Shown piece by piece: positions 159-24,212 of a DNA stretch of 61,936 nt. Every line of letters begins with the position of its first letter. The first letter of the stretch is position 1. The notes beneath the pieces were generated by a model. That model saw only the letters and a program-made list of their open reading frames with translations, had not been told where the DNA came from and did no database searches. A program made the translations under genes and the position numbers. The DNA is from Flavobacteria bacterium RIFCSPLOWO2_12_FULL_35_11 (GTDB taxonomy: Bacteria; Bacteroidota; Bacteroidia; Flavobacteriales; Flavobacteriaceae). The stretch is from positions 1 to 61,936 of the forward strand of contig MGWK01000054.1 of the NCBI GenBank assembly GCA_001800975.1, in the 5' to 3' direction.

Positions 159-654
159 TATTTTCTTTAAATGCTATTTTATAGCGTATCTTTTCAAAAC
201 CCATATTTCACTTTATACTATTTTATGTAACAAAGATTTCATCGTTATGTAACTAAACTAGCATAAAAAATAGTAAAAAATAAGTGTGATCCTTGTTAAA
301 AAATTACAAGTATCTGTTTTTCAATTATTTAAAAATTAAACAACCCTGATTTTTATCATAGAAAAACAACATCCATGTTTATATTTTTATAAAACATTAA
401 AAACAAAAATTTCTAAATATTATATGAAAATTATAAATTAATTGTCTCATTGATATTTTGGCAATTGTATCGGTTTAATTCCGGAATAAAATTACTTAGC
501 GCCAAGATGATATCATTAGCAAATATTTCATAATTACAATCAATATTAAAAGAATCAACAATTATTAATAAACTTAAGCTTAACTTAAACAGAAAAGCTT
601 CATAAAATTCAAAATAATTTTTTAAATTGCTTTACCGTTTAAATACTACTAATT
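159..654 (+). other. Long regulatory leader before the first electron-transfer operon
   Basis: About 500 bases with no credible gene. It holds two TTATGTAAC repeats 22 bp apart (223-231, 245-253), the FNR-like box and -7 element listed separately, and, at 593-606, an exact 14-base copy of part of the upstream terminator arm (123-136). If transcription starts near 396, the mRNA leader is roughly 260 nt, long for this group. Confidence 0.5.
347..389 (+). promoter_or_regulatory. FNR/CRP-type operator and -7 box for the first FeS/NrfD operon
   Basis: TGAT-TTTT-ATCA at 347-358 is a perfect four-base inverted repeat with a four-base spacer, like an FNR box without its outermost base. TATTTTTA at 382-389 matches TAnnTTTG at seven of eight positions. 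The operator centre to -7 start distance is 29.5 bp, identical to the arrangements at 4998-5040 and 24170-24212. With a start about seven bases after the -7 box, the operator would centre near -42, the class II activator position. Confidence 0.6.
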
Positions 655-927
655 ATGGATGAAAAAACTAAAAAAGGAACACAAATCTCAAGAAGAGGTA
701 TCCTGCCACTCTTAGGAAGCACTTTGCTGCTTCCACTTCTAGGATTTGGAAAAACATCAACTATTGATGAAATTATTGTCTCAGACGAAAATGAAGAATA
801 CCAAACTTTGTTAAAGCCCGATGGTACTGCGGTTAGAGTTAAAGTGAGTACTGTAAAAAATTCAAAAATTATTCAAAAGAACATTTCTAATGAATCATTT
901 CTTAATTGGTTAGGCAGAAAACTTTAA
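655..927 (+). CDS. Tat-exported mini-protein, first gene of electron-transfer operon 1
   Basis: A 90-residue protein with a clear twin-arginine signal (SRRGILPLLG, Arg13-Arg14, followed by a Leu-rich hydrophobic stretch), so it is probably exported folded or with a partner. The mature part is about 55 residues and has no Cys or His cluster. Its LLKPDGTAVRVKVS segment resembles LLTPEGKIVEVNAS and LMTTDGTIIEVDSS, which sit between the Tat signal and the first iron-sulphur motif of the two FeS proteins in this window. I read it as a stand-alone copy of that N-terminal domain, perhaps an assembly partner. It ends 22 bases before the FeS gene and shares its promoter. No known family recognised. 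Confidence 0.7.
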   Translation: MDEKTKKGTQISRRGILPLLGSTLLLPLLGFGKTSTIDEIIVSDENEEYQTLLKPDGTAVRVKVSTVKNSKIIQKNISNESFLNWLGRKL

Positions 928-949
928 TGTCTTTTAATTACTACTTTGT

Positions 950-1942
950 ATGAAAAATAACAACACTGATTCAAGGCGTAAATTTCTTGATAAAGGATTA
1001 AAATTGGGTCTGATTACGGCAATCGGCGCAATTGGACTAACTAAAATTGCGTCGAAATTAAACGCAAAAAATAGTGAAGCTTCAACCGGTAAAATGGAAC
1101 TAATGACTACTGATGGAACTATCATTGAGGTAGATTCTTCAGAAGTTATGGAAATGGACCATTCCAAAAAGCAAAAAAAGCAAGAGGAACAGGAAGCATA
1201 TGACGTTCGGGAAGGTATGCCAAACCGAAAATTTGTCATGGTGATAGATTTAGCAAAATGTAAAAATGCTTTAAAATGCCAAACTGCCTGCAACAAACAA
1301 CATTACATTACTGGTGAACATGCCTGGCTTAAAGTTTATAAAATGCAAGAAGATGAAGATACAGCACCTTATTGGATGCCAACCACCTGTATGCATTGCG
1401 ATCACCCGGCCTGTGTAACTGTTTGCCCGGTTGATGCCACTTTTAAAAGAAGAGACGGACTGGTTTTAATTGACAATGAGCGTTGTATTGGATGTAGATT
1501 CTGTATGGCAGCTTGCCCTTATTCAACTCGTGTATTTAACTGGAGTGAACCAAACCAAGGCGAAATTACTATGCTTATGGAAATGGAACACCAAACAGAG
1601 CATAACTCTGCTGAATTTGCCGGTTTGCCTAGCGTTAAAGGAACCGTTGATAAATGCGATTTTTGTCCGCACACAATAAAAGATAATGAATTGCCTCACT
1701 GTGTTACAGCTTGTCCAAACGGCGTATTTTATTTTGGTGATAAATATGAAGACACAGTTACCAATGGAGAAGAAACACTTAGATTAAGTGAATTATTAAA
1801 AGAAAAACATGGCTATCGATTAATGGAGGGCTTGGGAACAAAACCAAGTGTTTTCTATTTGCCGCCTGTTGACAGATTGGTAGATTTTAAAGAGGGATTA
1901 GAAAGTTTCACTGATTATAAATCTGTCGATAAACCTGAATAA
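950..1942 (+). CDS. Tat-exported multi-[4Fe-4S] electron-transfer protein (NrfC/HybA/DsrO type), copy 1
   Basis: 330 residues. A Tat signal (SRRKFLDKG, Arg9-Arg10) and hydrophobic segment place it on the periplasmic face. Four Cys groups follow, as in NrfC, HybA, PhsB and DsrO. Group I is CKNALKCQTAC (Cys104, 110, 114), group II CMHCDHPACVTVCP, group III CIGCRFCMAACP, and group IV CDFC...CVTAC. In group I the second Cys of the usual CxxCxxCxxxC is Ala107, so that cluster lacks one expected ligand. The family passes electrons between an NrfD-like quinone-binding subunit and a periplasmic partner. The NrfD gene starts 2 bases after the stop. No molybdopterin catalytic subunit is present nearby, so the terminal partner is probably the operon's cytochrome c. 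The paralogue is at 5167-6153. Confidence 0.88.
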   Translation: MKNNNTDSRRKFLDKGLKLGLITAIGAIGLTKIASKLNAKNSEASTGKMELMTTDGTIIEVDSSEVMEMDHSKKQKKQEEQEAYDVREGMPNRKFVMVIDLAKCKNALKCQTACNKQHYITGEHAWLKVYKMQEDEDTAPYWMPTTCMHCDHPACVTVCPVDATFKRRDGLVLIDNERCIGCRFCMAACPYSTRVFNWSEPNQGEITMLMEMEHQTEHNSAEFAGLPSVKGTVDKCDFCPHTIKDNELPHCVTACPNGVFYFGDKYEDTVTNGEETLRLSELLKEKHGYRLMEGLGTKPSVFYLPPVDRLVDFKEGLESFTDYKSVDKPE

Positions 1943-1944
1943 AT

Positions 1945-3261
1945 ATGAAAAATTACGACAAATTACTTAACGATTTAGCTCCGCAAAAATTTGGAAAAAA
2001 AGGCGTTATATGGACAATTACTTTAATTGTTTTAATAGTATTGGGAATTATAGCCTATATAGATCAAATTATAAAAGGTCAAGTGGTAACCAACATGAAT
2101 GATTATGCATTGTGGGGAGTATATATTTCAAACTTTGTGTTTTTTGTGGCAACAAGTTTTGTTGGTACAGTTACTGTAGCCGTTTTAAGGCTGACTAAAA
2201 ATACTTGGAGAACACCAGTTGTTAGAATTGCTGAAATCATTTCTGTATCAGCAATTATTATGGCGGGTATCACCATTACGATTGATATGGGCAGACCAGA
2301 TAGGTTGATGAATCTATTTATTCACGGAAGAATGCAATCTCCTATTACTTGGGACGTTATCATCATTCCAACTTATATTATGGTCAGTTTACTGTTATTA
2401 TATTTCCCTTTACTGCCAGATTTTGGGCTGCTAAGCAAATATTATAAAGACAAAAAACCAACACTAAGTAAATGGTATGGAAAACTTTCGTTGAATTGGA
2501 CAGGAAGTGAAGCCCAAAAAGAGATTCAACTAAAATCAATAAGTATCATTGCCATTTTAATTATTCCTGTTGGTTTTATGTTACAAACTATTGACGCATG
2601 GCTATTTTCGACACTGTTTAGAGTGGGTTGGGATAGTACCAACTTAGGTGCCTATTTTATTTCAGGAGCCTCTGTTGCCGGTGTTGGAGCATTGGTGTGC
2701 GTTGTGTATGTTCTTCAAAAAGTATACAAATTAGAAGATTACATTACCGACCTTCATTTTGATAAACTGGGAAAATTTCTGGTATTAACCTGTTTAATTT
2801 ACTTGTACTTTAACTTGAATGAATATTTAATACCTCAACTTACTTCAAAAAAAGAAGCAACTACGCACATAAATGTATTGCTTACTGGACAATTTGCCCC
2901 TTTATTTTGGTTTGTAATTATTGGCGGTCTAATTATTCCTGTTATTGTTTTATTATTTAAAAAGGGAAGAAAACCTTTTCCTATGTTTATTATTGGTTTA
3001 TTGGTGGTTACAGGATCTTGGTGGAAACGTTACCTAATTGTAACACCAACCTTATTGCATCCCTTTTTACCAATACAAGGTGTACCAGAAGAATGGCGTC
3101 ACTATTTCCCAAGTTTGCACGAATGGCTAATTACCATCGGAACTTTAGCGATGTCGCTGTTAATAATAACAATATTGGTAAGATATGTGCCTATTGTTCC
3201 TATTGTAAGGACTGCCGAAGAACGAGAAGAATTAGAACTAAATAAAAACACTGCAAAATGA
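1945..3261 (+). CDS. NrfD/PsrC-like integral membrane quinone-interacting subunit, copy 1
   Basis: 438 residues with eight or more strongly hydrophobic segments from about residue 18 to 420. It belongs to the NrfD/PsrC/DsrP/ActC superfamily, which exchanges electrons with the membrane quinone pool for an FeS partner. Visible features include the ALWGVYISNFVFF segment, the conserved DMGRPDRLMNLF turn, and SPITWDVI. Length and segment order suit the large NrfD forms. It follows the FeS gene almost directly and overlaps the next gene by four bases, so translation is probably coupled. In this group the quinone would be menaquinone (inference). Copy 2 at 6165-7520 is clearly homologous along its length. 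Confidence 0.88.
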   Translation: MKNYDKLLNDLAPQKFGKKGVIWTITLIVLIVLGIIAYIDQIIKGQVVTNMNDYALWGVYISNFVFFVATSFVGTVTVAVLRLTKNTWRTPVVRIAEIISVSAIIMAGITITIDMGRPDRLMNLFIHGRMQSPITWDVIIIPTYIMVSLLLLYFPLLPDFGLLSKYYKDKKPTLSKWYGKLSLNWTGSEAQKEIQLKSISIIAILIIPVGFMLQTIDAWLFSTLFRVGWDSTNLGAYFISGASVAGVGALVCVVYVLQKVYKLEDYITDLHFDKLGKFLVLTCLIYLYFNLNEYLIPQLTSKKEATTHINVLLTGQFAPLFWFVIIGGLIIPVIVLLFKKGRKPFPMFIIGLLVVTGSWWKRYLIVTPTLLHPFLPIQGVPEEWRHYFPSLHEWLITIGTLAMSLLIITILVRYVPIVPIVRTAEEREELELNKNTAK

Positions 3262-4106
3262 GAAATCCATTGATAATACGCCACTTTTTTCTTGTTGTAT
3301 TAAGTGTGTTTTTATGCACTTCAGTTTTTGCACAAGACAAGGTTAGATTAAAAGCCGAATATGTTAAAGTTATGAACGAAGGCGTTTATTTTGACATACA
3401 AGCCACAGCGAAAGTAAATGATGAAAATGTAAACGTTTCTAAAATTGAATTAGTCATTTATAATTTGGTGGGAGATGAACAAGTGGAAATAGGTAAAACT
3501 ATAACCAATATGCAGGGCAAAAGCAGATTTGCGCTAAAAGATATAAATTCTATAAAGCCAGATTCATCCAATACTTACAACATAGACATTTCATTTGCCG
3601 GAAATGATAAATTCTCTGATGCTTCAAAAAGCATAAGCTTTAAAAATGCCGATATTGAGGCTAAATTAGTTAGCATTGACAGTGTTTATTATGTGACCGC
3701 AACTCTAATAGATAAATCAACAGATAGTTTAGTTGTTGGTGAATCTCTAAAGGTTCAAATACAAAGAATGTTTAAAGCATTACCCATTGGTGAAGAATTT
3801 AATGAAACTGACGAGGATGGCACAATACTTGTACCTATTCCTGAAGGAATACCTGGTGTTGACGGAATACTGGCTATTGAAGTGGTTCTGAGTGAAAGTG
3901 AAGAATTTGGAACTGTAAAAGCAATCGTTAATGCCCCAATCGGAAAACCTGTAGTTGACGAATCAACTTTTGATGAAAGAACTATGTGGTCACCAAGAAG
4001 TAAAACACCTTTATTCTTGCTTATATTTCCGAATTTATTGATATTCGCAATATGGGGAATAATAATTTATTTAATTACCAATTTATTTAAAATAACAAAA
4101 TCCTAA
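3258..4106 (+). CDS. Exported beta-sandwich protein with C-terminal membrane anchor, copy 1
   Basis: 282 residues: an N-terminal signal peptide ending near CTSVFAQ, about 220 residues of beta-rich sequence without Cys that may form two Ig- or transthyretin-like domains, then one transmembrane segment close to the C terminus followed by NLFKITK. The block before the anchor, TMWSPRSKTPLF, corresponds to TLWSSAAPVWMY in the copy 2 protein, and the pairs YNLVGDEQ/FNVLNEEE and FAGNDKFSDAS/FEGNDAVAESS also align. It starts within the NrfD stop and is followed 10 bases later by the cytochrome gene. Fixed position in both operons suggests a structural subunit that docks the cytochrome or FeS protein. 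No named family recognised. Confidence 0.75.
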   Translation: MRNPLIIRHFFLVVLSVFLCTSVFAQDKVRLKAEYVKVMNEGVYFDIQATAKVNDENVNVSKIELVIYNLVGDEQVEIGKTITNMQGKSRFALKDINSIKPDSSNTYNIDISFAGNDKFSDASKSISFKNADIEAKLVSIDSVYYVTATLIDKSTDSLVVGESLKVQIQRMFKALPIGEEFNETDEDGTILVPIPEGIPGVDGILAIEVVLSESEEFGTVKAIVNAPIGKPVVDESTFDERTMWSPRSKTPLFLLIFPNLLIFAIWGIIIYLITNLFKITKS

Positions 4107-4116
4107 AATTAAAAAC

Positions 4117-4515
4117 ATGAAAACATTTAAAATTTTAACAATTATCGGAATTCTTTCTTTTGCATTTTACTCATTTACAAGTCTAGCACAAGAACCTTGG
4201 AAAGCACCTGCAAAATATCAAACAATGAAAAATCCTATCGCTAAAAAAACAGATGCTGCGATTGGAAAATCATTATACACCAAACATTGCAAATCATGTC
4301 ACGGTGCTGAAGGTTTTGGAGATGGTCCAAAAGCTAAAGAAATGAAAGGTGATTTAGGCGATTTTTCAACTAAAAAATTCCAAGCACAAAGTGATGGTTC
4401 ATTATTCTATAAAACTTCTACTGGAAGAGAAGATATGCCAGGATTTACAAAAAAAATCCCTTCAGATGATGACAGATGGTTAATCGTTAATTACATGAGA
4501 ACATTAGCTGAATAA
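4117..4515 (+). CDS. Mono-haem class I cytochrome c, copy 1
   Basis: 132 residues with an N-terminal signal peptide ending near SLAQ. The haem-binding motif is CKSCH (Cys58, Cys61, His62), and the likely axial Met is Met107 in GREDMPGF, as in small class I cytochromes. The mature part opens with a WKAPAKYQTMKNP segment shared by all three cytochromes of this region. It should act as periplasmic electron acceptor or donor for the FeS/NrfD pair and is the last gene of operon 1, ten bases after the anchored protein and before a strong terminator. Residues 55-130 are much closer to the third copy (9154-9861) than to the second. Confidence 0.9.
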   Translation: MKTFKILTIIGILSFAFYSFTSLAQEPWKAPAKYQTMKNPIAKKTDAAIGKSLYTKHCKSCHGAEGFGDGPKAKEMKGDLGDFSTKKFQAQSDGSLFYKTSTGREDMPGFTKKIPSDDDRWLIVNYMRTLAE

Positions 4516-4533
4516 TCTAAGATTGCGTAAATC

Positions 4534-4564
4534 AAAAAAACCGAACAATATGTTCGGTTTTTTT
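4534..4564 (+). terminator. Terminator of electron-transfer operon 1
   Basis: Perfect 14-base stem (4534-4547 with 4551-4564), three-base loop ATA, seven T at the end, 18 bases after the cytochrome stop codon. Confidence 0.9.
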
Positions 4565-5166
4565 ATGCCTAATAATTTCACACTTCAGAACTAACTTTCA
4601 AATTATGTTTGTGAAAAATGAATTTCATTGAAAATATATTCACAAAACTGCTTTTACATTCGTATTCCCTGCTCCTATTTGCTTGCTTTCTTCATATCAA
4701 ATCTACTTTCCATTCTTCAAAAAAACCTTTTAATACGTTCGTAATTCAATATTAAGGATCATTTTAAAATGCATTCAATTATGGTTCTATTCCATCGTTA
4801 CCTATTTTATGACAGCTCCCTAATTTGCTTTTTATTAAAAAAATTAATCACTTAACAATTCCTTTATATTTTTAATTAAGCCATGCTTCTATTCAGCAAA
4901 ACTGAGAAAATCAAGGCCATATACATAATTTAAATTGTTATGTGACTTTTATTTCATAAGGTTTATTTAAATTTTTGTATGGTAATCTTCGTATAAATGA
5001 CTTATATCATCATTTGATTAGCTATCTGGTGGTAAATTTATATGTGCAAAATTAGCATATCCATAAATATGGATATCCAATTTTATGAAATATAAAAATA
5101 AACGATTTAAAAGCGCCTATTAAATAGGAATTCCAGTTTAAATCGATTGAACTTAACCAAAATAAA
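4565..5166 (+). other. Intergenic region before electron-transfer operon 2
   Basis: About 600 AT-rich bases without a supportable gene in any frame. The only clear elements are the FNR-like operator and -7 box at 4998-5040. A TGTGACTTTTATTTCATA stretch near 4940-4960 resembles a degraded extra operator. The predicted transcript leader is about 120 nt. Confidence 0.5.
4998..5040 (+). promoter_or_regulatory. FNR/CRP-type operator and -7 box for electron-transfer operon 2
   Basis: TGAC-TTAT-ATCA at 4998-5009 (three of four arm pairs complementary) and TAAATTTA at 5033-5040 (seven of eight of TAnnTTTG). The centre to -7 distance is again 29.5 bp, identical to operon 1 and iorA. Confidence 0.65.
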
Positions 5167-6153
5167 ATGAAAAAAAACAAAACAGAAGAAGGTGGAACCG
5201 ACAGACGTAAATTCCTAAAATTGGGATTAATGACTAGTCTCACAGCAATTGCAGGCGCTTCAATTGTAACAAACTTAGCAGCGCAAGAAGAAGAAAAAGA
5301 ACCCTCAGGCGAAGTAATTAGATTATTAACCCCTGAAGGAAAAATAGTAGAAGTAAATGCATCTAATATCAACAAATATCCTGAAGCCCTTATAACTCCA
5401 GCGGAATCCAGAATTGGAATACCTGACCGGAAATTCGTAATGGTTATTGATTTGGCCAAATGTAAAAACGCCAGAAAATGTGTTGAAGAATGTCAAAAGG
5501 CACACAAATTAGATGATCACCAAGAATTTATAAAAATTCAACTTATTCAAAATCATGAAGAAGGTGAACCTTATTGGTTTCCTAAACCTTGTTTTCATTG
5601 TGATGAACCTCCTTGTGTTATCGTCTGCCCAACCGGAGCTACATTTAAAAGAGATGACGGTATCGTTCTCGTAGACAATACCCGCTGTATTGGATGTAAA
5701 TTTTGCGTCACAAGTTGTCCATATTCTGCACGACAGTTTAACTGGGGACACAAAGAAAAATTCGACGATAAAAGCCAACCTTATTCTCCTGAAACAGGTG
5801 TTCCTGCAGCAGAAGGAACTGTAATGAAATGTGATTTTTGTCCAGATTTATTGCGCCAAGGAGAATTGCCGCATTGTGCAAAAGCCTGCCCGATGGGTGT
5901 TATTTATTTTGGCGACAAAAATGAAGATATTGTTACCAATGGTGAAGAAACAGTTCGCTTCTCCCAATTAATTAATGACCGCGGCGGATATCGCCATTTG
6001 GAACATTTGGGAACCAAACCTAATGTATATTATTTACCGGCAGTAAACAGACAGTTCCCTTTAGAACGAGGATTTAATATTGATGAAGAAATAGTGGAAC
6101 GCTATAAAGATGTGCCTTATGTACAGGAACTAAAAAAACAAGGTAAAATTTAA
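5167..6153 (+). CDS. Tat-exported multi-[4Fe-4S] electron-transfer protein, copy 2
   Basis: 328 residues, paralogue of the protein at 950-1942. A Tat signal (TDRRKFLKLG) ends near NLAAQ, followed by the LLTPEGKIVEVNAS domain. Four Cys groups follow: CKNARKCVEEC (Cys99, 105, 109; Ala102 replaces the usual second Cys), CFHCDEPPCVIVCP, CIGCKFCVTSCP and CDFC...CAKACP. The missing ligand in the first group is therefore kept in both paralogues. The C terminus is longer and ends in a charged tail. It is the first gene of operon 2; unlike operon 1 there is no separate Tat mini-protein in front. The NrfD gene begins 11 bases downstream. Confidence 0.88.
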   Translation: MKKNKTEEGGTDRRKFLKLGLMTSLTAIAGASIVTNLAAQEEEKEPSGEVIRLLTPEGKIVEVNASNINKYPEALITPAESRIGIPDRKFVMVIDLAKCKNARKCVEECQKAHKLDDHQEFIKIQLIQNHEEGEPYWFPKPCFHCDEPPCVIVCPTGATFKRDDGIVLVDNTRCIGCKFCVTSCPYSARQFNWGHKEKFDDKSQPYSPETGVPAAEGTVMKCDFCPDLLRQGELPHCAKACPMGVIYFGDKNEDIVTNGEETVRFSQLINDRGGYRHLEHLGTKPNVYYLPAVNRQFPLERGFNIDEEIVERYKDVPYVQELKKQGKI

Positions 6154-6164
6154 TACTGATAATT

Positions 6165-7520
6165 ATGAATATAGATACTAGAAAAAGAGAATTGGTTAAA
6201 GAACTTTCTCCGATGCTTGAAAAATCCAGTTTGTTATCCAAAATTTGGATTATATCATTGATTTCCATAATATTAGTGGGACTTTACGCATTTATTCTTC
6301 AATTAAGTAACGGACATGAAGTTACCGGGATGAGGGATAATGTAGTTTGGGGAATATATATTGTAAATTTTATATTTTTTGTTTGCCTTAGTTATTCAGG
6401 AGCATTTATTGCAGGGGTATTGCACTTTTTTGAAACACCCCTAAAAAATTCCATTGCGAGAATCGTTGAAATTACCACGGTTTTATCTTTAATAATTGGG
6501 CCGGTTTTTATCTTATTGTGTATTGGTCGATTGGACAGGCTGTATTATTTATTCCTATATCCTAGAATTCAGTCTCCAATTTCATGGGATATTATTGCCA
6601 TTCTTACAGATCTTATTGGCTGTTTTGTTTATTTGTACTTAACTTTTATTCCAGATTTGGCCATTTTAAGAGACGCATCAAAAGAAAATGCAGAAGTTCC
6701 AAAATGGCGAAAAAAAATGTATAAATTCTTAGCTATAGGCTATCAAGATACACCAACCCAGCATGAAAGACTGCATAAAATTATCAGAATCATGTCAGTG
6801 ATGATTATCGCAATGGCCATTGTAGCTTATTCGGTGCTTGCCTGGATTTTCAGCTTAACAGTACAACCGGGCTGGAACAGTTCCATTTTTGCGCCATATT
6901 TTATAATTTCGGGATTATATTCAGGAATTGCGGTAATCATAATAGCAATGTATATTATTAGAAAATTCTATAAATTAGAAAAGTACATCACTAAAATACA
7001 TTTTTTCGCCGGCGGGGTAATATTGTTGATATTCTCTTTATTATATGGTTACTTTACGTTTTCCGAATATTTTTCAAGATGGTTTAGCCATAAAAAACAT
7101 GATGTCGATTTATTAAACACCTTATTTTCAAGATATTTTTGGCAATTTATTTTCGCAAATTATTTTGGAATTTTAATGCCGATAGCAATTTTATTCTTTA
7201 AAAAATTAAGAACTGTAAAATTGGTAACTATCGCAGCTATTATTTCAGTATTAGGGATATGGTTAAATAAATATTTGATTGTGGTGCCAACTTTAGAAAC
7301 ACCATACTTGCCAATTCAAGACACCAGAGCCGAATTTGTGCATTACTCAGCTACTTGGGTAGAATATTCTCTAAGCTTGACAGGTATTGCAGCTTTTTGT
7401 TTGTTTTTTACGCTTATCCTAAAATTTGTTCCGGCAATTCCAATGTCAGGAATTATCGATCTGGAAAAAAGAAAACAATTGAAGAGAAAAAAGGATAATC
7501 AATTGGCAACTGAGCTTTAA
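6165..7520 (+). CDS. NrfD/PsrC-like integral membrane quinone-interacting subunit, copy 2
   Basis: 451 residues, multi-pass, homologous to the protein at 1945-3261. Matching landmarks include NVVWGIYIVNFIFF (ALWGVYISNFVFF in copy 1), CIGRLDRLYYLFLYPRIQSPISWD (split here by eye; DMGRPDRLMNLF and MQSPITWD in copy 1), and NKYLIVVPTLETPYLPIQ near the C terminus (KRYLIVTPTLLHPFLPIQ). The cytoplasmic C-terminal tail is Lys-rich. It should connect the FeS protein to the quinone pool. Eleven bases separate it from the genes on either side. Copy 1 and copy 2 differ enough that the duplication looks old rather than recent. Confidence 0.87.
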   Translation: MNIDTRKRELVKELSPMLEKSSLLSKIWIISLISIILVGLYAFILQLSNGHEVTGMRDNVVWGIYIVNFIFFVCLSYSGAFIAGVLHFFETPLKNSIARIVEITTVLSLIIGPVFILLCIGRLDRLYYLFLYPRIQSPISWDIIAILTDLIGCFVYLYLTFIPDLAILRDASKENAEVPKWRKKMYKFLAIGYQDTPTQHERLHKIIRIMSVMIIAMAIVAYSVLAWIFSLTVQPGWNSSIFAPYFIISGLYSGIAVIIIAMYIIRKFYKLEKYITKIHFFAGGVILLIFSLLYGYFTFSEYFSRWFSHKKHDVDLLNTLFSRYFWQFIFANYFGILMPIAILFFKKLRTVKLVTIAAIISVLGIWLNKYLIVVPTLETPYLPIQDTRAEFVHYSATWVEYSLSLTGIAAFCLFFTLILKFVPAIPMSGIIDLEKRKQLKRKKDNQLATEL

Positions 7521-7531
7521 AAAATAAAATT

Positions 7532-8434
7532 ATGAAAAGTAATCTATTTAAATATACAAAAATTACTGCTTTTTTAGCCGTCTTGCTATTCAGCATTAAT
7601 AGCAATGCCCAAGAAAAAGACGCAAGTAATTACGACATGTCGTTTGAATTTAAAACTATAAAACAAGACGATAATTCTCGTTTGCTTGAAGCAAATTTTA
7701 ACGGTAAAAATATAGAAGACAGGAAAGATATTATTCCAATGTTTAATGCAGAAATTAAATTTTTCAATGTTTTAAATGAAGAAGAAGTTTTGTTGGGTAC
7801 TGCCAAAACATCAAAAGAAGGAATTGCACAATTTACGCTTCCTGAAAATCAAAAATATTTGACAGACGAAAATGGAAATATCAATTTGATAGCACGTTTT
7901 GAAGGCAATGATGCCGTGGCAGAATCTTCCGCAGAAATAATTGTTAAAAACATTAAACTAGCACTTAATTTAGAAGAAATAGACAGTGTTAAAACAGTTT
8001 TGGTAACCGCTTTCACCTTTGATGAATCAGGCACTGAAATTCCTCTGGAAGAAACTGATGTTATTATTTATGTTCAAGGAATGTTTTCAAAAATGAAAAT
8101 TGCCGAAGGAACCATAAGCGAAGGCGCATTTGAATTTGAAATGCCTACAGATTTACCAGGTGATTCAAATGGCAATTTAACCGTCTTTTCAATTATTGAA
8201 GGAAATGAGCAATATGGAACTGTAATCCAAAAGAAAAACATCAAATGGGGTGTCTTTCAAAAACAAATAAAAGAGAATCAAAATACTTTATGGTCAAGCG
8301 CTGCTCCTGTATGGATGTATGTGGTATTAACCATTTTATTGGTTGGTGTTTGGGCAAACTACATTTATACCATCATAAATTTATTTAAAATCAAAAAAGA
8401 AGGCCAGGATATAGAATTAGAAACTGAATCATAA
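7532..8434 (+). CDS. Exported beta-sandwich protein with C-terminal membrane anchor, copy 2
   Basis: 300 residues. A signal peptide ends near NSNAQ, then about 220 residues of beta-rich, Cys-free extracytoplasmic sequence, then one transmembrane helix near the end with a short acidic tail. It aligns in order with the copy 1 protein, including the WS block before the anchor and NLFKIKK after it. Function is unknown; the conserved place between NrfD and cytochrome c in both operons is the main clue and points to a structural or docking subunit on the periplasmic face. Confidence 0.73.
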   Translation: MKSNLFKYTKITAFLAVLLFSINSNAQEKDASNYDMSFEFKTIKQDDNSRLLEANFNGKNIEDRKDIIPMFNAEIKFFNVLNEEEVLLGTAKTSKEGIAQFTLPENQKYLTDENGNINLIARFEGNDAVAESSAEIIVKNIKLALNLEEIDSVKTVLVTAFTFDESGTEIPLEETDVIIYVQGMFSKMKIAEGTISEGAFEFEMPTDLPGDSNGNLTVFSIIEGNEQYGTVIQKKNIKWGVFQKQIKENQNTLWSSAAPVWMYVVLTILLVGVWANYIYTIINLFKIKKEGQDIELETES

Positions 8435-8504
8435 AAGGTAATAATACCGCCTAAAGTGTATGTAACTATTTTAAAAACAAAAATTAATATAAATTCAAAA
8501 AACA

Positions 8505-8906
8505 ATGAAAACAGTAAAATTTTTAATGATTATCGGAATAATTAGTGTTGGACTTTTATCCTTTACTAAATTAACGCAAACAGAGTGGAAAGTTCCTGCT
8601 AAATACCAAACAATGAAAAACACGCTTGAAGCCAGTAAAGCAAATATAGCTTTAGGAAAAACCCTATATGCAAAACACTGTAAATCTTGCCACGGAAGTA
8701 CAGGTTTAGGTGATGGAACAAAAGCGGGTGAAGTTGATGGCGATTTAGGTGATTTTTCATCTAAAAAATTTCAGGCACAAACTGATGGCGCATTATTTTA
8801 CAAAAGCTACATTGGAAGAAATGACATGCCGAACTATGAAAAGAAAATTACCGACAAAGATGATGTTTGGGCAATCATTCATTATGTAAGAACATTAAAA
8901 AAATAA
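8505..8906 (+). CDS. Mono-haem class I cytochrome c, copy 2
   Basis: 133 residues with a hydrophobic N-terminal export signal, haem motif CKSCH and probable axial Met in GRNDMPNY. The WKVPAKYQTMKN segment is shared with the other two cytochromes. It is the last gene of operon 2 but is separated from the anchored protein by 70 bases that contain a TATGTAAC element, so it may have an additional promoter. Periplasmic electron carrier for the FeS/NrfD copy 2 complex by position. It is the most diverged of the three cytochromes (STGLGDGTKAGEVDG instead of AEGFGDGPKAKEMKG). Confidence 0.88.
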   Translation: MKTVKFLMIIGIISVGLLSFTKLTQTEWKVPAKYQTMKNTLEASKANIALGKTLYAKHCKSCHGSTGLGDGTKAGEVDGDLGDFSSKKFQAQTDGALFYKSYIGRNDMPNYEKKITDKDDVWAIIHYVRTLKK

Positions 8907-17771: not shown

Positions 17772-17822
17772 TATGACAAATGTCATAAAAATAAAGGCCT
17801 TAAAACTATGACTTTTATCATA
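17772..17822. promoter_or_regulatory. Two FNR/CRP-type operators in the hemA/AraC divergent region
   Basis: TATGACA-AA-TGTCATA (17772-17787) is palindromic apart from its centre. TATGACTTTTATCATA (17807-17822) contains TGAC-TTTT-ATCA. The second centres 50.5 bp before the AraC -7 box, exactly 21 bp more than the 29.5 bp seen at three other promoters, as expected for a class I site two helical turns further out. Confidence 0.6.
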
Positions 17823-17844
17823 CTTATTCATATCAGATCATTTT

Positions 17845-17906: not shown

Positions 17907-18800
17907 ATGAAATCCAATTTAGAAAATTATAAAAATATCGACAAAAGTACCCAGTTTATTTTTAGTGAAACGGATACTTTTAAAGTATTCAACTTAAATA
18001 ATCTGTCTGAAAATGATGAATTTTATAAACTTTCATTAACCAAAAACTACATTCAAATTTATTTTTGCTGCAACAACGAATGTAAAGTTGCCTTTAATTT
18101 TGAGCATTGCGTTATGCCTTTAACTGAAGGCAATTCAAGCATGGTATATTTTAAGGATGAAAAAATGGATTTGCTTTTTAGGCTACCTCCAAATTCAGAA
18201 TTGCTGGCCATATTAATTTCTATTGAACATTTTCATTCTTTATTTTCCATCAACGGAACTGTTTTATTTAACTATAACAGTTTAAAGGGAGAAAACCCTA
18301 TTATTGAACCAAAAGAAACCAATTCTTCCATAAAATTAATTTTGAACCAACTAAGGACCAAACAAACAAACGATTTGCTTAGGCCAATTTATATTAAGGG
18401 AAAAGTTTACGAATTGCTGAGTTTTTATTTCAGTCAATCTTCGGAAAAAGAAACTGAAAATTGCCCATACATTTCTAATGAAGAAACCGCCAGCAAAATA
18501 AAACAGGCAAAACAATTGATTATATCAAATATGAACAATCCGCCTTCACTTACCGATTTGGCCAAAGAAGTTGGACTTAACATCAAAAAATTAAAAACGG
18601 CCTTTAAGGAAATTTATGGCGTTCCGGTATTCACCTTTTTGCTGAACCATAAAATGGAATTGGCAAAAACATTGTTGCAGGAACAACAATTAAATGTGAA
18701 CGAAATAGCGTCTCATTTGGGCTATAGCGCTTCCAGCCATTTTATTGCGGCCTTTAAAAGTAAATTCGGCATCACACCAAAACAATTTTCAAAATCATAA
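17907..18800 (+). CDS. AraC-family transcriptional regulator next to the haem genes
   Basis: 297 residues. The last ~100 form the AraC double helix-turn-helix (ANNPPSLTDLAKEVGLNIKK-like first helix pair, here NNPPSLTDLAKEVGLNIKKL; then LNVNEIASHLGYSASSHFIAAFKSKFGITPKQF). The N-terminal ~190 residues look like a beta-rich sensing domain with a CCNNEC segment (near residue 53) that could bind metal or haem (inference). It diverges from the hemA operon and precedes hemH by 13 bases, so it probably regulates haem synthesis. Its own promoter carries FNR-like operators. Confidence 0.85.
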   Translation: MKSNLENYKNIDKSTQFIFSETDTFKVFNLNNLSENDEFYKLSLTKNYIQIYFCCNNECKVAFNFEHCVMPLTEGNSSMVYFKDEKMDLLFRLPPNSELLAILISIEHFHSLFSINGTVLFNYNSLKGENPIIEPKETNSSIKLILNQLRTKQTNDLLRPIYIKGKVYELLSFYFSQSSEKETENCPYISNEETASKIKQAKQLIISNMNNPPSLTDLAKEVGLNIKKLKTAFKEIYGVPVFTFLLNHKMELAKTLLQEQQLNVNEIASHLGYSASSHFIAAFKSKFGITPKQFSKS

Positions 18801-18813
18801 TTGTACCATTACA

Positions 18814-19827
18814 ATGAAAGGAGCTTTATTAGTAAATTTAGGATCGCCAAACAGTACTTCCGTTAAAGATGTGAAAAACTATTTGGATGAATTTTTAATG
18901 GATGAACGGGTAATTGATATCCCTTATTTACTTCGCGCATTTTTGGTTAAAGGCATTATTTTAAATACCCGACCAAAAAAATCGGCGGCTGCTTATAAAA
19001 AAATCTGGCGGGATGAAGGCTCTCCTTTAATTGTGCTTTCCAATAGATTGCACAAAAAAGTAAAGAAAAATACCAATATTCCTGTTGAATTGGCGATGCG
19101 TTACGGAAATCCTTCCATGAAAAGCGGCATTCAAAAATTGGCTGAGCAAGGCGTTGATGAAATTTTACTGATTCCTCTTTATCCCCAGTTTGCGATGGCA
19201 ACCACAGAAACCATAGAAGTTTTGGCGAAAGAAATTGTAAAAAAACATTACCCAAACATAAAACTGACTATGGTTCCGGCTTTTTACAACAAAACAGATT
19301 ATGTTGAAGCTTTAAGCGAAAGAATTCAAAATGAATTGACAAAACTGCAGCCCGAACATTTGCTTTTTTCCTATCACGGCGTTCCGGAGAGACATATTAA
19401 AAAATCGGATGTCACCAAATCACATTGTAAAATTGATGGCAGTTGCTGCAACACACCATCTACAGCCCATGAATTTTGCTACCGCCATCAATGCTATGAA
19501 ACCACAAAAAATGTTGCCGCAAAATTAAATTTAGAAGAAGGAAGTTACAGCACATCTTTTCAATCGCGTTTAGGAAGTGACCCTTGGCTGCAGCCTTATA
19601 CCGATAAAACCATTGACAACTTCGCCATAAATGGTGTGAAAAAATTAGCCGTTGTTACACCTGCATTTGTTTCTGATTGTTTGGAAACTTTGGAAGAAAT
19701 TGGCATGGAAGCCAAACATTCATTTAAGGAAAATGGCGGAGAAGATTTTAATATGATTCCTTGCTTAAATGATGACGACAAATGGGTAAAAACACTGTCG
19801 GGCTGGATTCATGATTGGGCGAAATAA
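18814..19827 (+). CDS. hemH: Ferrochelatase
   Basis: 337 residues. It inserts ferrous iron into the porphyrin (protoporphyrin or, in some lineages, coproporphyrin), the closing metal step of haem synthesis. Motifs are GALLVNLGSPNS at the N terminus, LLIPLYPQFA, LFSYHGVPERH with the catalytic His, FQSRLGSDPWLQPYTD and the late VTPAFVSDCLETLEEI. The CCNTPSTAHEFCYRHQC segment contains several Cys. I start at ATG 18814, which gives the family N terminus; an upstream in-frame ATG lies inside the AraC gene. Same transcript as AraC by position. Confidence 0.95.
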   Translation: MKGALLVNLGSPNSTSVKDVKNYLDEFLMDERVIDIPYLLRAFLVKGIILNTRPKKSAAAYKKIWRDEGSPLIVLSNRLHKKVKKNTNIPVELAMRYGNPSMKSGIQKLAEQGVDEILLIPLYPQFAMATTETIEVLAKEIVKKHYPNIKLTMVPAFYNKTDYVEALSERIQNELTKLQPEHLLFSYHGVPERHIKKSDVTKSHCKIDGSCCNTPSTAHEFCYRHQCYETTKNVAAKLNLEEGSYSTSFQSRLGSDPWLQPYTDKTIDNFAINGVKKLAVVTPAFVSDCLETLEEIGMEAKHSFKENGGEDFNMIPCLNDDDKWVKTLSGWIHDWAK

Positions 19828-19863
19828 TCATTTAGTACTAAGAATTTAGAAGTTAGCATTGAG

Positions 19864-19903
19864 AAACCTGATAGCGGATTTATATTCGCGTTATCAGGTT
19901 TTT
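19864..19903 (+). terminator. Terminator after hemH
   Basis: AAACCTGATAgCG ... TTATCAGGTTTTT hairpin with a ten-base AT-rich loop, 36 bases after the hemH stop. Confidence 0.8.
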
Positions 19904-20135
19904 CTTTTTACTTCAACCATAAAACAGACGCCATAACCATTCAAAATATTAAAAGTCCTTTTGATGATTTATAATAAAAAAAACTACTTTTGATAAGCCC
20001 AAAAGTGAAACAAACCTTCGCAAAGCTACCCAAATTTGGGTGTATAAATGAAGGTTTGTTTCGCATATAAACAAATTGGTGGCAAGCACAGCGAAACTCA
20101 ACAGGGCAACGAAACATAAAAGACATTGACAGAAA
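19904..20135. repeat. Composite palindrome bordering the accessory block
   Basis: GAAACAAACCTTC (20007-20019) and its exact complement GAAGGTTTGTTTC (20050-20062) enclose a second perfect palindrome, ACCCAAATTTGGGT (20028-20041). No gene is seen here. The following GGTGGCAAGCACAGCGAAAC and GGGCAACGAAACATAAAAGA text is more GC-rich than its surroundings, like borders of accessory cassettes in this phylum (impression from memory). Confidence 0.5.
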
Positions 20136-20717
20136 ATGAAAAAAGAACCGCTAATAAATTTCGTTCAAAAGAACTCGCCTGCATCAAAACAGACACTTAT
20201 GGACATTGTAGAACATTTTGAAGAAAAAACCATTTTTAAAAACGATTACTTACTCAAAGAAGGACAAATTAGTAACGATTATTTATTTTTGGCAGATGGT
20301 TTTATGAGAGCATTCACTTTCGACACAGAAGGTAACGAAGTAACAACCTATTTCTATCCAAAAAACAGGGTGGTTTTTGAAGCGTCATCATTTTTTATGC
20401 GGACAATTTCCACAGAAAACATACAAGCATTGACAGACTGTAAAGGCTACTCTATAACTTTTGAAAAATTAAATATGCTCTTTCACTCTGTTCCAGAGTT
20501 TAGGGAATTTGGACGAGCAATGTTGGTAAAAGAATTTGTTGCATTCAAGCAGCGAACTTTGGCAATGATTAACAAAAGTGCAGAAGAACGCTATGCAAAC
20601 TTAATAAACTCTAACAAAGAAATTTTTCAAAATGCACAACTTAAACATATTGCTTCCTATCTTGGTATAACAGACACATCATTGAGTAGAATTAGAAAAG
20701 AGTTTTCCAAAAAATAG
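20136..20717 (+). CDS. CRP/FNR-family transcriptional regulator
   Basis: 193 residues. An N-terminal cyclic-nucleotide-binding-like beta-barrel (DYLLKEGQISNDYLFLADGFMRAF) and the C-terminal winged helix (LKHIASYLGITDTSLSRIRKEF) are typical of the short Bacteroidota CRP-like regulators. Only one Cys is present, so it cannot carry an FNR iron-sulphur cluster. It leads the accessory block and probably controls the four downstream genes, which follow 79 bases later. Whether it reads the TGAy-N4-ATCA operators in this window is unknown; its recognition helix gives no direct clue. Confidence 0.85.
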   Translation: MKKEPLINFVQKNSPASKQTLMDIVEHFEEKTIFKNDYLLKEGQISNDYLFLADGFMRAFTFDTEGNEVTTYFYPKNRVVFEASSFFMRTISTENIQALTDCKGYSITFEKLNMLFHSVPEFREFGRAMLVKEFVAFKQRTLAMINKSAEERYANLINSNKEIFQNAQLKHIASYLGITDTSLSRIRKEFSKK

Positions 20718-20796
20718 TTCCCTTTTCATTTCTTGCCATTTGGCAAGTGCTTTTCGTTTCCCTATGTGTTCCTTTGCTTCATAAATATTTAATGCA

Positions 20797-21483
20797 ATGG
20801 ACAATTTACCTTATTACATCTATTTGGTTTTTGGGCTAACACTGTTGTTGGCAATATTCCTTTTCTATAAAGCTACAAACTACTCAAAAATATTTTTGAC
20901 AATTATATCTGTATGGATAACGGCACAAGCTATTTTTAGTCTTTCGGGCTTTTACAAAATTGTAAATACAATTCCTCCAAGATTTGCTTTGCTTCTTTTA
21001 CCACCGTTGGTAATGACAATTGTACTTTTCAACACTAAAAAAGGGAAACAGTTTATTGATAATTTGAAGTTAAATACACTTACCTTATTTCACATTATTA
21101 GAGTTCCTGTTGAATTGGTTTTGTTTTGGCTTTTTGTTAGCAAAACTGTTCCCGAATTAATGACTTTTGAAGGCAGAAACTTCGACATATTATCAGGAAT
21201 ATCTGCGTCTATCATTTTTTATTATGGTTTTGTAAAAAAAACATTAAATAAAAATATCTTACTGCTTTGGAATTTTATTAGTTTGGCTTTGCTTTTCAAT
21301 ATTGCTTTCAATGCAATACTTTCTTTGCCAAGTGCATTTCAACAATTCGCTTTTGCCCAGCCTAATATTGCAATCATTCATTTTCCATTTGTGTTGCTTC
21401 CATCGATTTTAGTGCCTTTGGTTTTATTTGCTCATTTAGCATCAATTAGACAACTTTTAAACGACAAAAAACATTTAATATGA
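20797..21483 (+). CDS. Multi-pass membrane protein of the accessory operon, copy 1
   Basis: 228 residues with about six or seven hydrophobic segments and no Cys-rich or catalytic motif. The central RVPVELVLFWLFVSKTVPEL, then GRNFDILSGISAS, parallels RIFAGLLFLHFSDKLPEEF and GYGDIVAGLLGAS in the 22466-23029 protein, and both end in a P-rich segment followed by H(L/I)xS(I/L)xRL. They are paralogues that flank the NmrA-like gene. No named family recognised. Its stop overlaps the next start by four bases (ATGA), indicating one operon. Confidence 0.75.
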   Translation: MDNLPYYIYLVFGLTLLLAIFLFYKATNYSKIFLTIISVWITAQAIFSLSGFYKIVNTIPPRFALLLLPPLVMTIVLFNTKKGKQFIDNLKLNTLTLFHIIRVPVELVLFWLFVSKTVPELMTFEGRNFDILSGISASIIFYYGFVKKTLNKNILLLWNFISLALLFNIAFNAILSLPSAFQQFAFAQPNIAIIHFPFVLLPSILVPLVLFAHLASIRQLLNDKKHLI

Positions 21484-22469
21484 AAGAGAAAATATTAATT
21501 ACATCAGCCACAGGCAAAACAGGATTTGAAGCTACAAAGCAATTATTAAAAGATGGTTATCCTGTTAGAATTTTTGTTCGCTCAAGAAATACCAAAGCAT
21601 TGGAATTAGAAAAATTAGGAGCAGAAATTTGCATCGGCAACTTAACCGATTATGCAGATTTATGCAGTGCTTTAAAAGATGTTCAACGGGTTTACTATTG
21701 CCATCCATTTATGCCTCATTTATTTGAAAACACAAAATTATTTATAAAATGTGCAAAGGAAAACAACATTGAAGCTGTTGTAAATATGGGACAATGGCTG
21801 GCGGAATTTGAAAATGCTAAAAGTATTCATACCATTGAAACACAGAAAGCATATACGCTTTTTGTGCAAGAAAAGATTAATGTTGTACACATAATTCCTC
21901 CGTTTTTTGCCGACAATACTTTTTTTGTAACTGAATTTGCAATACAATTAGGTTTGATGCCTTTACCATTCGGCAAAGGGAAAAATCCTGCTATTTCTAA
22001 CGAAGATTTAGGTTTGACAATTGCTTCTTTGCTAAAGAATCCACAGCCTTATTTAGGCAAGCGACTAAAAGTAACGGGACCAAAATCATTATCGCCAAAC
22101 GAAATGGCTGCAATATTTTCAAAAGTTGTTGGTCGCAAGGTGAGATACATCAATATTCCCGAATGGATGTTCATAAAAGCTGGCTTCTTTTTTGCCAAAG
22201 AAATGAATTTAGATGCTTTTACCATCTCACAAGTTCGTCATTATATGAAAGAATATCAAACCAATAAATTTGATGGAACTACAAATATTGTAAAAGAGCT
22301 TACAGGCAAAGAACCAGATAACTTTGAAACCATTGTAAAAACTTATGTAAACAACTCGCCTTATAAGAAACGTAATTTTTCAAATTGGTTTTCTGCAATG
22401 AAAAGATTTATGGAATTACCATTGCATTCCATTCCAAGTATTAAAGAATTAGAAAAATACAATCAATGA
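21480..22469 (+). CDS. NmrA-like NAD(P)-binding protein
   Basis: 329 residues with a Rossmann N terminus, ILITSATGKTGFEATKQLL, and the atypical-SDR/NmrA pattern (RVYYCHPFMPHLFENTKLFI, VVNMGQWLAEF, later GPKSLSPNEMAAIFSKVVGRKVRYINIPEWM). Such proteins act as redox sensors or as quinone or isoflavone-type reductases; there is no canonical YxxxK so catalytic function is uncertain. It overlaps both neighbouring membrane-protein genes by four bases each. Confidence 0.82.
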   Translation: MKEKILITSATGKTGFEATKQLLKDGYPVRIFVRSRNTKALELEKLGAEICIGNLTDYADLCSALKDVQRVYYCHPFMPHLFENTKLFIKCAKENNIEAVVNMGQWLAEFENAKSIHTIETQKAYTLFVQEKINVVHIIPPFFADNTFFVTEFAIQLGLMPLPFGKGKNPAISNEDLGLTIASLLKNPQPYLGKRLKVTGPKSLSPNEMAAIFSKVVGRKVRYINIPEWMFIKAGFFFAKEMNLDAFTISQVRHYMKEYQTNKFDGTTNIVKELTGKEPDNFETIVKTYVNNSPYKKRNFSNWFSAMKRFMELPLHSIPSIKELEKYNQ

Positions 22470-23029
22470 AAAATAGAATAATAGTTTTTATAATCATTTG
22501 GATTTTAATTACTGCCTCATTGGGTTATTTTGATGTATTTCTAAAATTACCTATACAAGCATTTGGTTCTTATGTTTTCATAATTAACATATTAATTGTA
22601 ATCAGCTATCTTAAAATCAAAAACTTACGATCACTTATCAATAGTATACCTTTGAAATTATTTGCGTTTATTAATATATTCAGAATTTTTGCAGGTTTAC
22701 TATTTTTACATTTCAGCGATAAACTTCCAGAAGAGTTTGTATATAAAGCAGGCTATGGAGATATTGTCGCAGGTCTTCTTGGTGCATCAGTTTTTATATT
22801 TGGTCATAGAAAAATCACTTATTACCTATTGAATATATTTGGTTTATTAGATTTAGTAAATGCTTTATCAATAGGTATGTTCCTAAACATCACAGGAAAT
22901 CCAAAAATGGAATTTGCTGCTCAATTCCCTATCCTTTTTATACCTCTTTTAATAGTAACTCATATTAATTCATTAACAAGGTTACCAAAAATAATGGAAA
23001 CAACACTGTTTGAATTAATACAAAAATAA
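22466..23029 (+). CDS. Multi-pass membrane protein of the accessory operon, copy 2
   Basis: 187 residues with five or six hydrophobic segments; shorter paralogue of the 20797-21483 protein (RIFAGLLFLHF, KLPEEF, GYGDIVAGLLGAS, FPILFIPLLIVTHINSLTRL). Starts inside the NmrA-like stop codon. Function unknown. Repetition of the same family on both sides of an NAD(P)-binding protein suggests the products work together in the membrane. Confidence 0.72.
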   Translation: MKNRIIVFIIIWILITASLGYFDVFLKLPIQAFGSYVFIINILIVISYLKIKNLRSLINSIPLKLFAFINIFRIFAGLLFLHFSDKLPEEFVYKAGYGDIVAGLLGASVFIFGHRKITYYLLNIFGLLDLVNALSIGMFLNITGNPKMEFAAQFPILFIPLLIVTHINSLTRLPKIMETTLFELIQK

Positions 23030-23037
23030 TTTATTCT

Positions 23038-23733
23038 ATGTACAACTACACAAAATTTGCAAACAAGGAATACAACCTTGTGTATTCATCAGGCATTAAA
23101 AGTGGAGACATTGTCCCAAATTTCTCTTTCTTAACATTAGACGGACTAAATAAAAATATTTCAAACTTTACCGACAAACCAATAATTTTAGAAACAGGAA
23201 GTTTGAGCTGTGGAATGTTTGCAGGGCAAAACAAAGCAATGAACCGATTAGCATCTGAAAACAAAGATTTTGATTTTCTATTGCTGTATGTGAGAGAAGC
23301 ACATCCAGGCAAACTAATAAATGCACATAATAGCATTGAGCAAAAATGTGATTTAGCTAACCGACTTAATACTGAGGACATAATAGAAAACCGGACAATA
23401 ATAATCGACGATATAAACGGAACTGTTCACAAAATATTAGGAGCGCTACCTAATATGGTTTACATAATAGACACCAATGGACAAATAATTTTTAAAGACG
23501 AATGGAATAATGCAAAAACTCTGAAAAATGCAATCCAAGAATTTAAGATTAATAGAAAACCAATAGAACAAAAATGGGCAATGTTACCACTACCAAATAT
23601 TCCTATTGAATACAAAATTTTTAAAAGAGCTGGTTGGGATGCTGGTTTTGATTTTATTGTAGCACTGCCAAAATTAATTTTCTTTCATTTGTTTGGTGGA
23701 TTATGTGGAAAATATCCAAAATTTGCTAACTGA
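23038..23733 (+). CDS. Deiodinase-like thioredoxin-fold protein
   Basis: 231 residues. The stretch ILETGSLSCGMFAGQNKAMN followed by LLLYVREAHPG matches the iodothyronine deiodinase family layout (active-site GSxx(U/C)xxF, then YIxEAH), with Cys in place of selenocysteine. Bacterial members are redox enzymes of uncertain substrate. The last ~60 residues (RAGWDAGFDFIVALPKLI) may associate with membrane. No signal peptide is evident. It ends the accessory operon, 8 bases after the membrane protein. Oxidoreductase role inferred from family. Confidence 0.75.
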   Translation: MYNYTKFANKEYNLVYSSGIKSGDIVPNFSFLTLDGLNKNISNFTDKPIILETGSLSCGMFAGQNKAMNRLASENKDFDFLLLYVREAHPGKLINAHNSIEQKCDLANRLNTEDIIENRTIIIDDINGTVHKILGALPNMVYIIDTNGQIIFKDEWNNAKTLKNAIQEFKINRKPIEQKWAMLPLPNIPIEYKIFKRAGWDAGFDFIVALPKLIFFHLFGGLCGKYPKFAN

Positions 23734-23938
23734 GAAAACTATATTTAAAAAAATGCCAGCCACTAATACTGGTTTTGAACTATTGCCGGGCTTGGGCGTA
23801 TTTGGACATTACGCTGAAAATCTTTTTTCTTTCTAAGTTTTCGGTATATTTGTTAGCACCTGTGCAAAAACCGGCAACAGACGCAAAGTGGCCAACCGTT
23901 ATCAGCAAGGCTATGACGACACACAACGAATATACGGA

Positions 23939-24076
23939 ATGACAGAAAGGACAAAAATGTTTGTCGACATATAAAAAATTATTGAAACGGTTTATCTTTT
24001 CAAAGTTGAGCCAATATTAAGCGAAGAAAAATACGAAATCTTCATTTTTTTTTCCAATTTCCCATACTTTCATTAA
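23939..24076 (+). pseudogene. Possible degenerate gene remnant
   Basis: ATG at 23939 opens a frame interrupted by TAA at 23972 and then continues for 33 protein-like codons (KIIETVYLFKVEPILSEEKY) to a second stop. The rest of the 23734-24247 gap holds no gene; it includes GC-richer text around 23860-23935 (GGCAACAGACGCAAAG, CAACCGTTATCAGCAAGG) like a cassette border, and the iorA promoter at its end. Confidence 0.3.
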
Positions 24077-24169
24077 GTTGAAGTGTAATTACGTCTTTAA
24101 TATTCAAAAACTAAAGACTTTTATTGAATATATAATAGTTTGTTTATCAATAAGTTATAGACTTTCGAT

Positions 24170-24212
24170 TGATTTTTATCATACAAAATACGAAATCGTT
24201 TTCATAAATTTG
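24170..24212 (+). promoter_or_regulatory. FNR/CRP-type operator and -7 box for iorA-iorB-acs
   Basis: TTGAT-TTTT-ATCAT with perfect inner arms TGAT/ATCA (24170-24181) and an exact TAAATTTG (24205-24212). Centre to -7 distance is 29.5 bp, the same as the two electron-transfer operons. Start codon 35 bases after the -7 box. Confidence 0.7.

Follow-up and report, generated by a model that had tools for sequence, protein, structure and literature searches.

Three operons in a 61,936-nt stretch of Flavobacteria bacterium RIFCSPLOWO2_12_FULL_35_11 (contig MGWK01000054.1, the whole of which constitutes our window) are preceded by operators resembling those of FNR, raising the question of whether one activator reads them all from a constant distance to the promoter. 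We find that a family-wide set of class II promoters of the CRP/FNR type is real and that three of its members lie in the window, ahead of two electron-transfer operons and an iorAB operon. An earlier note on this DNA had claimed that the operators at 347, 4998 and 24170 are all centred 29.5 bp before a TAnnTTT element, the -7 box, and the claim holds exactly for all three:

347 to 358, plus strand: operator TGATTTTTATCA, centre 352.5, predicted position -41.5
382 to 389, plus strand: -7 box TATTTTTA, predicted start site at 394
4998 to 5009, plus strand: operator TGACTTATATCA, centre 5003.5
5033 to 5040, plus strand: -7 box TAAATTTA, start site predicted at 5045 by the position rule in PMC6847099
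24170 to 24181, plus strand: operator TGATTTTTATCA, centre 24175.5
24205 to 24212, plus strand: -7 box TAAATTTG, predicted start site at 24217, leader of 31 nt

At the 347 promoter, the window sequence offers two overlapping box registers, 380 or 382, and register 382 is the sole one left in the four orthologous promoters that have the operator (L160, L162, L163 and L164). The composite TGAY-N4-RTCA-N23-TAnnTTT was found three times in the window with 0.05 expected, a count reached by none of 100 dinucleotide shuffles. The bare operator showed no clear enrichment there (seven found, 3.6 expected, seven reached by 8 of 100 shuffles), as would be expected if operator and box were common AT-rich words that had met by coincidence. 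The whole 3.56-Mb genome was then scanned, as the earlier note had proposed, for TGAT-N4-ATCA with a TAnnTTT box after a gap of 10 to 40 bp, and the spaced motif proved far above chance and mostly intergenic: 27 of 84 pairs fall at gap 23 (Poisson, 5e-22 for the peak), and the other 30 gaps share 57, with at most five each. A count at the fixed gap of 23 gives 28, the 347 site having entered the gap histogram in its other register (380). The wider motif (TGAY, RTCA) matches 45 times at gap 23 and the reversed pattern once, the latter not serving as the main control because TGAT and ATCA look commoner than their own reversals. Open reading frames (ORFs) of at least 100 residues enclose 2 of the 45 gap-23 sites versus 15 of 20 off-gap sites, the latter being the 20 of 57 off-gap matches that were fetched, scored under a slightly wider rule by which an ORF running past the left edge was accepted too. 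A single sharp spacing peak, mostly intergenic sites, an independent -7 signature and conservation all argue against coincidence, which the spacing histogram and the off-gap control in relatives rule out; we allow it practically no chance.

In class II promoters, an operator of the CRP/FNR type is centred at -41.5. The base that follows TAnnTTT, which was not in the search pattern, is A or G at all 43 sites outside ORFs versus 12 of 20 off-gap sites (Fisher, 3e-5), and G occurs at the two free box positions in 1 of 43 versus 6 of 20 (Fisher, 0.003). The promoter rule of Flavobacterium johnsoniae, TAHHTTTG, places T, A, T, T, T and G at -12, -11, -8, -7, -6 and -5 (PMC6847099, in part), and the start-site map of F. 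psychrophilum likewise sets the box at -12 to -5 (PMC9723704, in part). Since the observed boxes match this rule, with a purine at its end and G-poor free positions, we regard them as real sigma-A promoter elements; and because the first T of the box is published at -12 and the operator centre lies 29.5 bp upstream of it, the two-fold symmetric TGA-N6-TCA operators fall at -41.5, the class II position, with start sites deduced from the box. The class II geometry is thus strongly supported, on sequence grounds, by genome-wide fixed spacing, the -7 signature, conservation and the published box position, and the earlier note was right to propose it. This suggests that the classical -41.5 geometry is also compatible with the divergent sigma-A of the Bacteroidota phylum.

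The spacing is kept in relatives. Gap 23 outnumbers gap 18, the sole off-gap spacing counted there, by 232 to 13 in 13 Lutibacter genomes and by 233 to 43 in 27 other genomes of the family. The best iorA relatives (up to 96% identical) are assigned to Lutibacter, which makes the own genome most likely a Lutibacter too. Operator and gap are retained before iorA in 19 of 19 flavobacterial loci (all titled as flavobacteria apart from one titled merely Bacteroidetes bacterium) and in 0 of 3 Bacteroidales loci, the box being scored as TAnnTT. Two of the loci, L059 and L060, retain operator and gap despite otherwise diverged promoters, and at L067 the site lies 169 bp before the aligned start. An identical operator and gap were found at the 347 promoter in four of five close Lutibacter orthologues, the four named above and not L161. 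Of 19 loci in other genomes that hold NrfD-type operons, 13 show a gap-23 site; the six without one are L151, L152, L156, L161, L166 and L167. We found no account of an FNR-type regulon in Flavobacteriaceae among open-licence papers, within the top-ranked part of larger result lists.

The genes behind the three window promoters are as follows:

655 to 4515, plus strand: first electron-transfer operon, beginning with the gene of a 90-residue protein
950 to 1942, plus strand: DsrO-like 4Fe-4S protein, below the DsrO cut-off
1945 to 3261, plus strand: NrfD/DsrP-like membrane protein, below the DsrP cut-off
3258 to 4106, plus strand: unnamed protein
4117 to 4515, plus strand: cytochrome c
5167 to 8906, plus strand: second electron-transfer operon, with a DsrO-like protein at 5167 to 6153
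6165 to 7520, plus strand: NrfD-like protein
7532 to 8434, plus strand: unnamed protein
8505 to 8906, plus strand: cytochrome c
24248 to 25864, plus strand: iorA, first gene of the third operon, 528.8 bits versus a cut-off of 650.9
25868 to 26458, plus strand: iorB
26473 to 28542, plus strand: acid-CoA ligase, of the ADP-forming type by its domains

The last of these had been labelled acs; an acid-CoA ligase it is, but of the ADP-forming type. Outside the window, 25 hand-picked first or second genes were surveyed with Pfam and NCBIfam, a selection that is not an enrichment test. TGAT/ATCA sites precede the operons of two window promoters and genes for a universal stress protein, a P-type ATPase, an ArsR-type regulator, a ribosome-hibernation-type protein followed by a ribonucleotide reductase, a HemG-type protoporphyrinogen dehydrogenase, a type III sulfide:quinone reductase, pyruvate phosphate dikinase, a glyoxalase-family protein (methylmalonyl-CoA epimerase by eye), an RpoD-like sigma factor and a Crp protein. 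TGAC/GTCA sites precede pyruvate:ferredoxin oxidoreductase, two further 2-oxoacid:ferredoxin oxidoreductases, a PhsA-like molybdoenzyme operon (below the PhsA cut-off) and an operon that is rhodanese-like by eye. Two sites, L019 and L027, have no ORF downstream. Many downstream genes, including those for the ferredoxin oxidoreductases, HemG, the sulfide:quinone reductase and the cbb3 oxidase, would suit low oxygen, their products being oxygen-labile or low-oxygen enzymes; other first genes show no family or no evident oxygen link. As a separate observation, the sulfide:quinone reductase (L017 2667-3914, minus strand) passes the NCBI model for the type III selenoprotein subtype.

Two operator classes bear on whether the three operons form one regulon, as had been claimed. 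The 4998 operator is, judged by its orthologues (protein identity at least 80%), of a class other than those at 347 and 24170: six of eight promoters carry TGACTTATGTCA at gap 23, and the remaining two have TGAC-N4-GTCA further upstream without a box. Sites of this TGAC-N4-GTCA subclass number 134 in 40 genomes of relatives, with the reversed pattern as their only control. It is conceivable, although we doubt it, that there are two class II regulons, one regulator serving TGAT-N4-ATCA (347 and 24170) and another serving TGAC-N4-GTCA, the latter set comprising 4998, the pyruvate and 2-oxoacid:ferredoxin oxidoreductases and the PhsA-like operon. Such a division would fit the TGACTTATGTCA operators of the 4998 orthologues, the TGAT/ATCA mostly kept at the 347 and iorA sites, the TGAC/GTCA sites of the own genome before ferredoxin oxidoreductases and the molybdoenzyme operon, and the presence beside the PhsA-like operon of a third Crp type, whose recognition helix (SRVVVSR) is different. 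Hybrid sites, however, are common, iorA sites vary too (TGAC/ATCA in L056, TGAT/GTCA in L066), and the orthologous ccoS-ccoN promoter, just past the gene of an FNR-like protein and ccoI, has TGAT/ATCA, TGAT/GTCA or TGAC/GTCA according to genome. At gap 23 this promoter carries TGATAAAAATCA in G055, TGATAATTGTCA in G061, G128 and G009, TGATAAAAGTCA in G144, and TGACAAATGTCA in G100 and G136, and in the own genome it carries TGACAATTATCA at gap 22; the seven other genomes were picked for having a match and so show class swapping, not frequency, and the identity of ccoN was confirmed by Pfam in two genomes. Because the operator class is swapped between species at one and the same promoter, a single protein may read both classes, which is the simpler view. 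A single regulon for the three operons is likely, with the subclass of the 4998 operator counting against it.

The own genome encodes five HTH_Crp_2 proteins. We rank first as regulator, if not by much, the 228-residue FNR-like protein whose gene lies beside ccoI and the cbb3 oxidase operon, and second a fusion of receiver and CRP domains. The FNR-like protein has the CRP/FNR fold, with Pfam cNMP_binding and HTH_Crp_2 domains, and Foldseek with its predicted structure returned CRP/FNR proteins as top matches, A. fischeri FNR ranking 19th. Orthologues scoring above 200 bits occur in 36 of 40 family genomes, and cysteines C4, C7, C53 and C106 are invariant in 22 of 22 orthologues. Residues C4, C7 and C106 align with cysteines of A. 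fischeri FNR, which we take to be cluster ligands. The cluster of E. coli FNR is held by a C-x2-C-x5-C motif plus a central cysteine, and the recognition helix of FNR reads E-x-x-S-R. Here, the CxxC and central cysteines are kept, with C53 invariant in place of the third N-terminal one, and the helix reads ES(A/C)IR, keeping E and R with I for S. Because its cysteine layout departs from that of FNR, we call the protein FNR-like. Genome G071 has a second FNR-like paralogue (L124 2509-3240, minus strand; 33% identical) with a classical CxxC-x4-C N-terminus, a type absent among the own genome's matches.

Around the FNR-like gene, 12 gap-23 sites were found in 11 of 20 fetched stretches, including sites ahead of that gene in G119 and G132, the latter with a weaker box. 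The receiver-CRP fusion (351 residues, with receiver, cNMP-like and Crp-type HTH domains; above 180 bits in 18 of 40 family genomes) is a serious rival, and its gene adjoins that of a kinase:

C7:138248-140673 (L068 2249-4674, minus strand): histidine kinase with PAS, HisKA and HATPase domains

Judged by eye, this kinase has a histidine at what is presumably the position of the FixL heme ligand. It strikes us as possible yet improbable that this response regulator and its PAS kinase, a two-component pair with CRP-like output, are the main readers of the class II sites. The receiver-CRP gene lies within a cluster of seven gap-23 sites (C7:129-151 kb), one of them directly below it and before a universal stress gene; its recognition-helix segment, ATETFIR, is similar to the ATESAIR of the FNR-like protein; and TGAC/GTCA sites lie near the receiver-CRP gene in several genomes, such as G119, G080 and G147. 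Against it, TGAT sites still number 188 at gap 23 versus 34 at gap 18 in the 22 genomes that have the FNR-like protein without a strong receiver-CRP match, they do not exceed chance in the two genomes G090 and G147 (1 to 1 and 2 to 2), where receiver-CRP is present without an FNR-like protein, and the cbb3 promoter beside the FNR-like gene has an operator even in genomes with weak receiver-CRP matches. All these co-occurrence tests ignore the relatedness of genomes. How the FNR-like gene is distributed in the order (77 of 146 genomes matched at 1e-35) is given no weight here, since many non-carriers are small and come with no off-gap count.

Several observations weigh against the FNR-like protein as a low-oxygen activator at these sites. 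Of the 28 TGAT sites in the own genome, seven are grouped near the receiver-CRP gene, and TGAT and TGAC counts are higher in the 18 receiver-CRP genomes (Mann-Whitney p 0.003 and 0.0003, uncorrected for relatedness). The FNR-like orthologue is absent from G048 and G071, although sites number 9 and 11 there, compared with 2 and 3 at gap 18; G048 does have receiver-CRP. The third N-terminal cysteine of FNR is missing; 2 of the 45 motif matches lie within a gene; a number of first genes belong to no family or show no clear oxygen link (for example L006, L008, L030 and L039); the L161 orthologue of the 347 promoter (G001) has no operator within 900 bp; and L156, L166 and L167 have none at their NrfD-type loci.

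Even so, we consider it probable that these are class II sites of a CRP/FNR activator, most likely the FNR-like protein, acting as a low-oxygen switch. A dimer of this activator would bind TGAY-N4-RTCA centred at -41.5, the three window sites included, where it would adjoin an RNA polymerase carrying the flavobacterial sigma-A on the box at -12 to -5, and would turn on genes of fermentation and low-oxygen respiration as oxygen runs short. The activator most likely is the protein encoded beside ccoI, which has counterparts of three of FNR's four cluster cysteines together with the invariant C53 and so probably holds an oxygen-labile iron-sulfur cluster. The sites, their spacing and conservation, the genes behind them and the cysteines are direct observations, whereas binding, activation, the cluster, the oxygen response and the identity of the regulator are what we infer; oxygen control in particular is deduced from the kinds of genes downstream, from the cysteines and from a report that cbb3 is induced in F. 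psychrophilum when oxygen is limiting (PMC9723704, in part).

At 8 of 43 promoters, a further operator, matching at 7 or more of 8 positions, starts exactly 22 bp upstream of the first, and other offsets from 12 to 60 occur at most once each. The eight paired promoters include that of the RpoD-like sigma gene and three places without a convincing ORF, where a repeated stretch of about 200 nt ends in a hairpin resembling an intrinsic terminator. This multi-copy candidate small RNA, with paired operators and a terminator-like hairpin, is conserved in Lutibacter and is placed at:

C7:136730-136771 (L009/L068), minus strand
C26:65721-65762 (L019)
C61:199-240 (L178)

L019 contains a 179-bp tandem repeat. 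For the copy that lies between the universal stress and reductase genes, 7 of 7 Lutibacter stretches carry the operator pair, compared with 0 of 6 from other genera, and terminators with exact stems were found in 4 of the 7. A conserved ORF was looked for in the candidate and none was seen, and no Rfam family matched at cut-offs, with one sub-threshold match to traJ_5 (E 0.31). A low-oxygen small RNA would be the obvious guess. The RpoD-like sigma gene (287 residues; L028, C65:8769-8810, minus strand) has both the class II site and the pair, and an identical pair occurs in G003 (L182). We speculate, tentatively, that Flavobacteriaceae have their own FNR branch, with a relocated fourth ligand at C53, as a global class II low-oxygen switch whose paired dimers at -41.5 and -63.5 would control two kinds of target, the RpoD-like sigma gene and the small RNA with its several copies, a functional counterpart of FnrS.

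Elsewhere in the window, two operator-like sites, TGACAAATGTCA at 17774 and TGACTTTTATCA at 17809, lie 35 bp apart (17774 to 17820), between a glutamyl-tRNA reductase (hemA-type) gene and an AraC-type/ferrochelatase pair. A gap-23 box is absent from both; TACTTTTG lies further downstream, by eye near class I distance, and the two are possible further members of the regulon.

Low-oxygen sensing in flavobacteria is little known. A survey predicted that a CRP/FNR homologue of Flavobacteriales senses carbon (PMC8510549, in part), and the flavobacterial transcriptome paper reporting cbb3 induction by oxygen limitation names neither CRP nor FNR in its main text (PMC9723704). Our results point to oxygen control of a gene network in Flavobacteriaceae, a family for which networks of this kind are not well described, and the fixed-distance motif yields a target list, a candidate regulator and promoters open to testing.

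Class II promoters of proteobacterial FNR carry TTGAT-N4-ATCAA at -41.5. The promoters described here share the TGAT-N4-ATCA core, the -41.5 centre and anaerobic-type targets, and the alignment of the FNR-like protein to A. fischeri FNR spans its length. They differ in belonging to another phylum, in the sigma-A box (TAnnTTTR instead of TATAAT), in the base after ATCA (T in 21 of 28 sites rather than A), in the TGAC/GTCA variants and 22-bp pairs, and in a regulator whose third cluster cysteine is absent and whose C53 is invariant. The closest solved relative of the FNR-like protein, in sequence and fold, is the P. gingivalis Crp/Fnr protein 2GAU, although identity in the fold alignment is 29% and the sequence match begins after the N-terminal cysteine segment. 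In the FixLJ-FixK system, the cbb3 oxidase and low-oxygen genes are under a CRP/FNR-type activator; a PAS kinase and a receiver-CRP fusion are present here as candidates, with receiver and CRP output joined in one protein. HcpR of Bacteroides and Porphyromonas is likewise a Bacteroidota activator of the CRP/FNR family with a regulatory RNA, but it binds heme and serves nitrosative stress, and its SnoA RNA is antisense to the hcp promoter, whereas the RNA candidate here is predicted to be a separate terminated transcript (PMC13370916, in part). Set beside these systems, the promoters follow the textbook in their geometry, and the features that seem novel are the phylum, the setting with its -7 box, the changed set of cysteines, the pairing of operators at 22 bp and the RNA.

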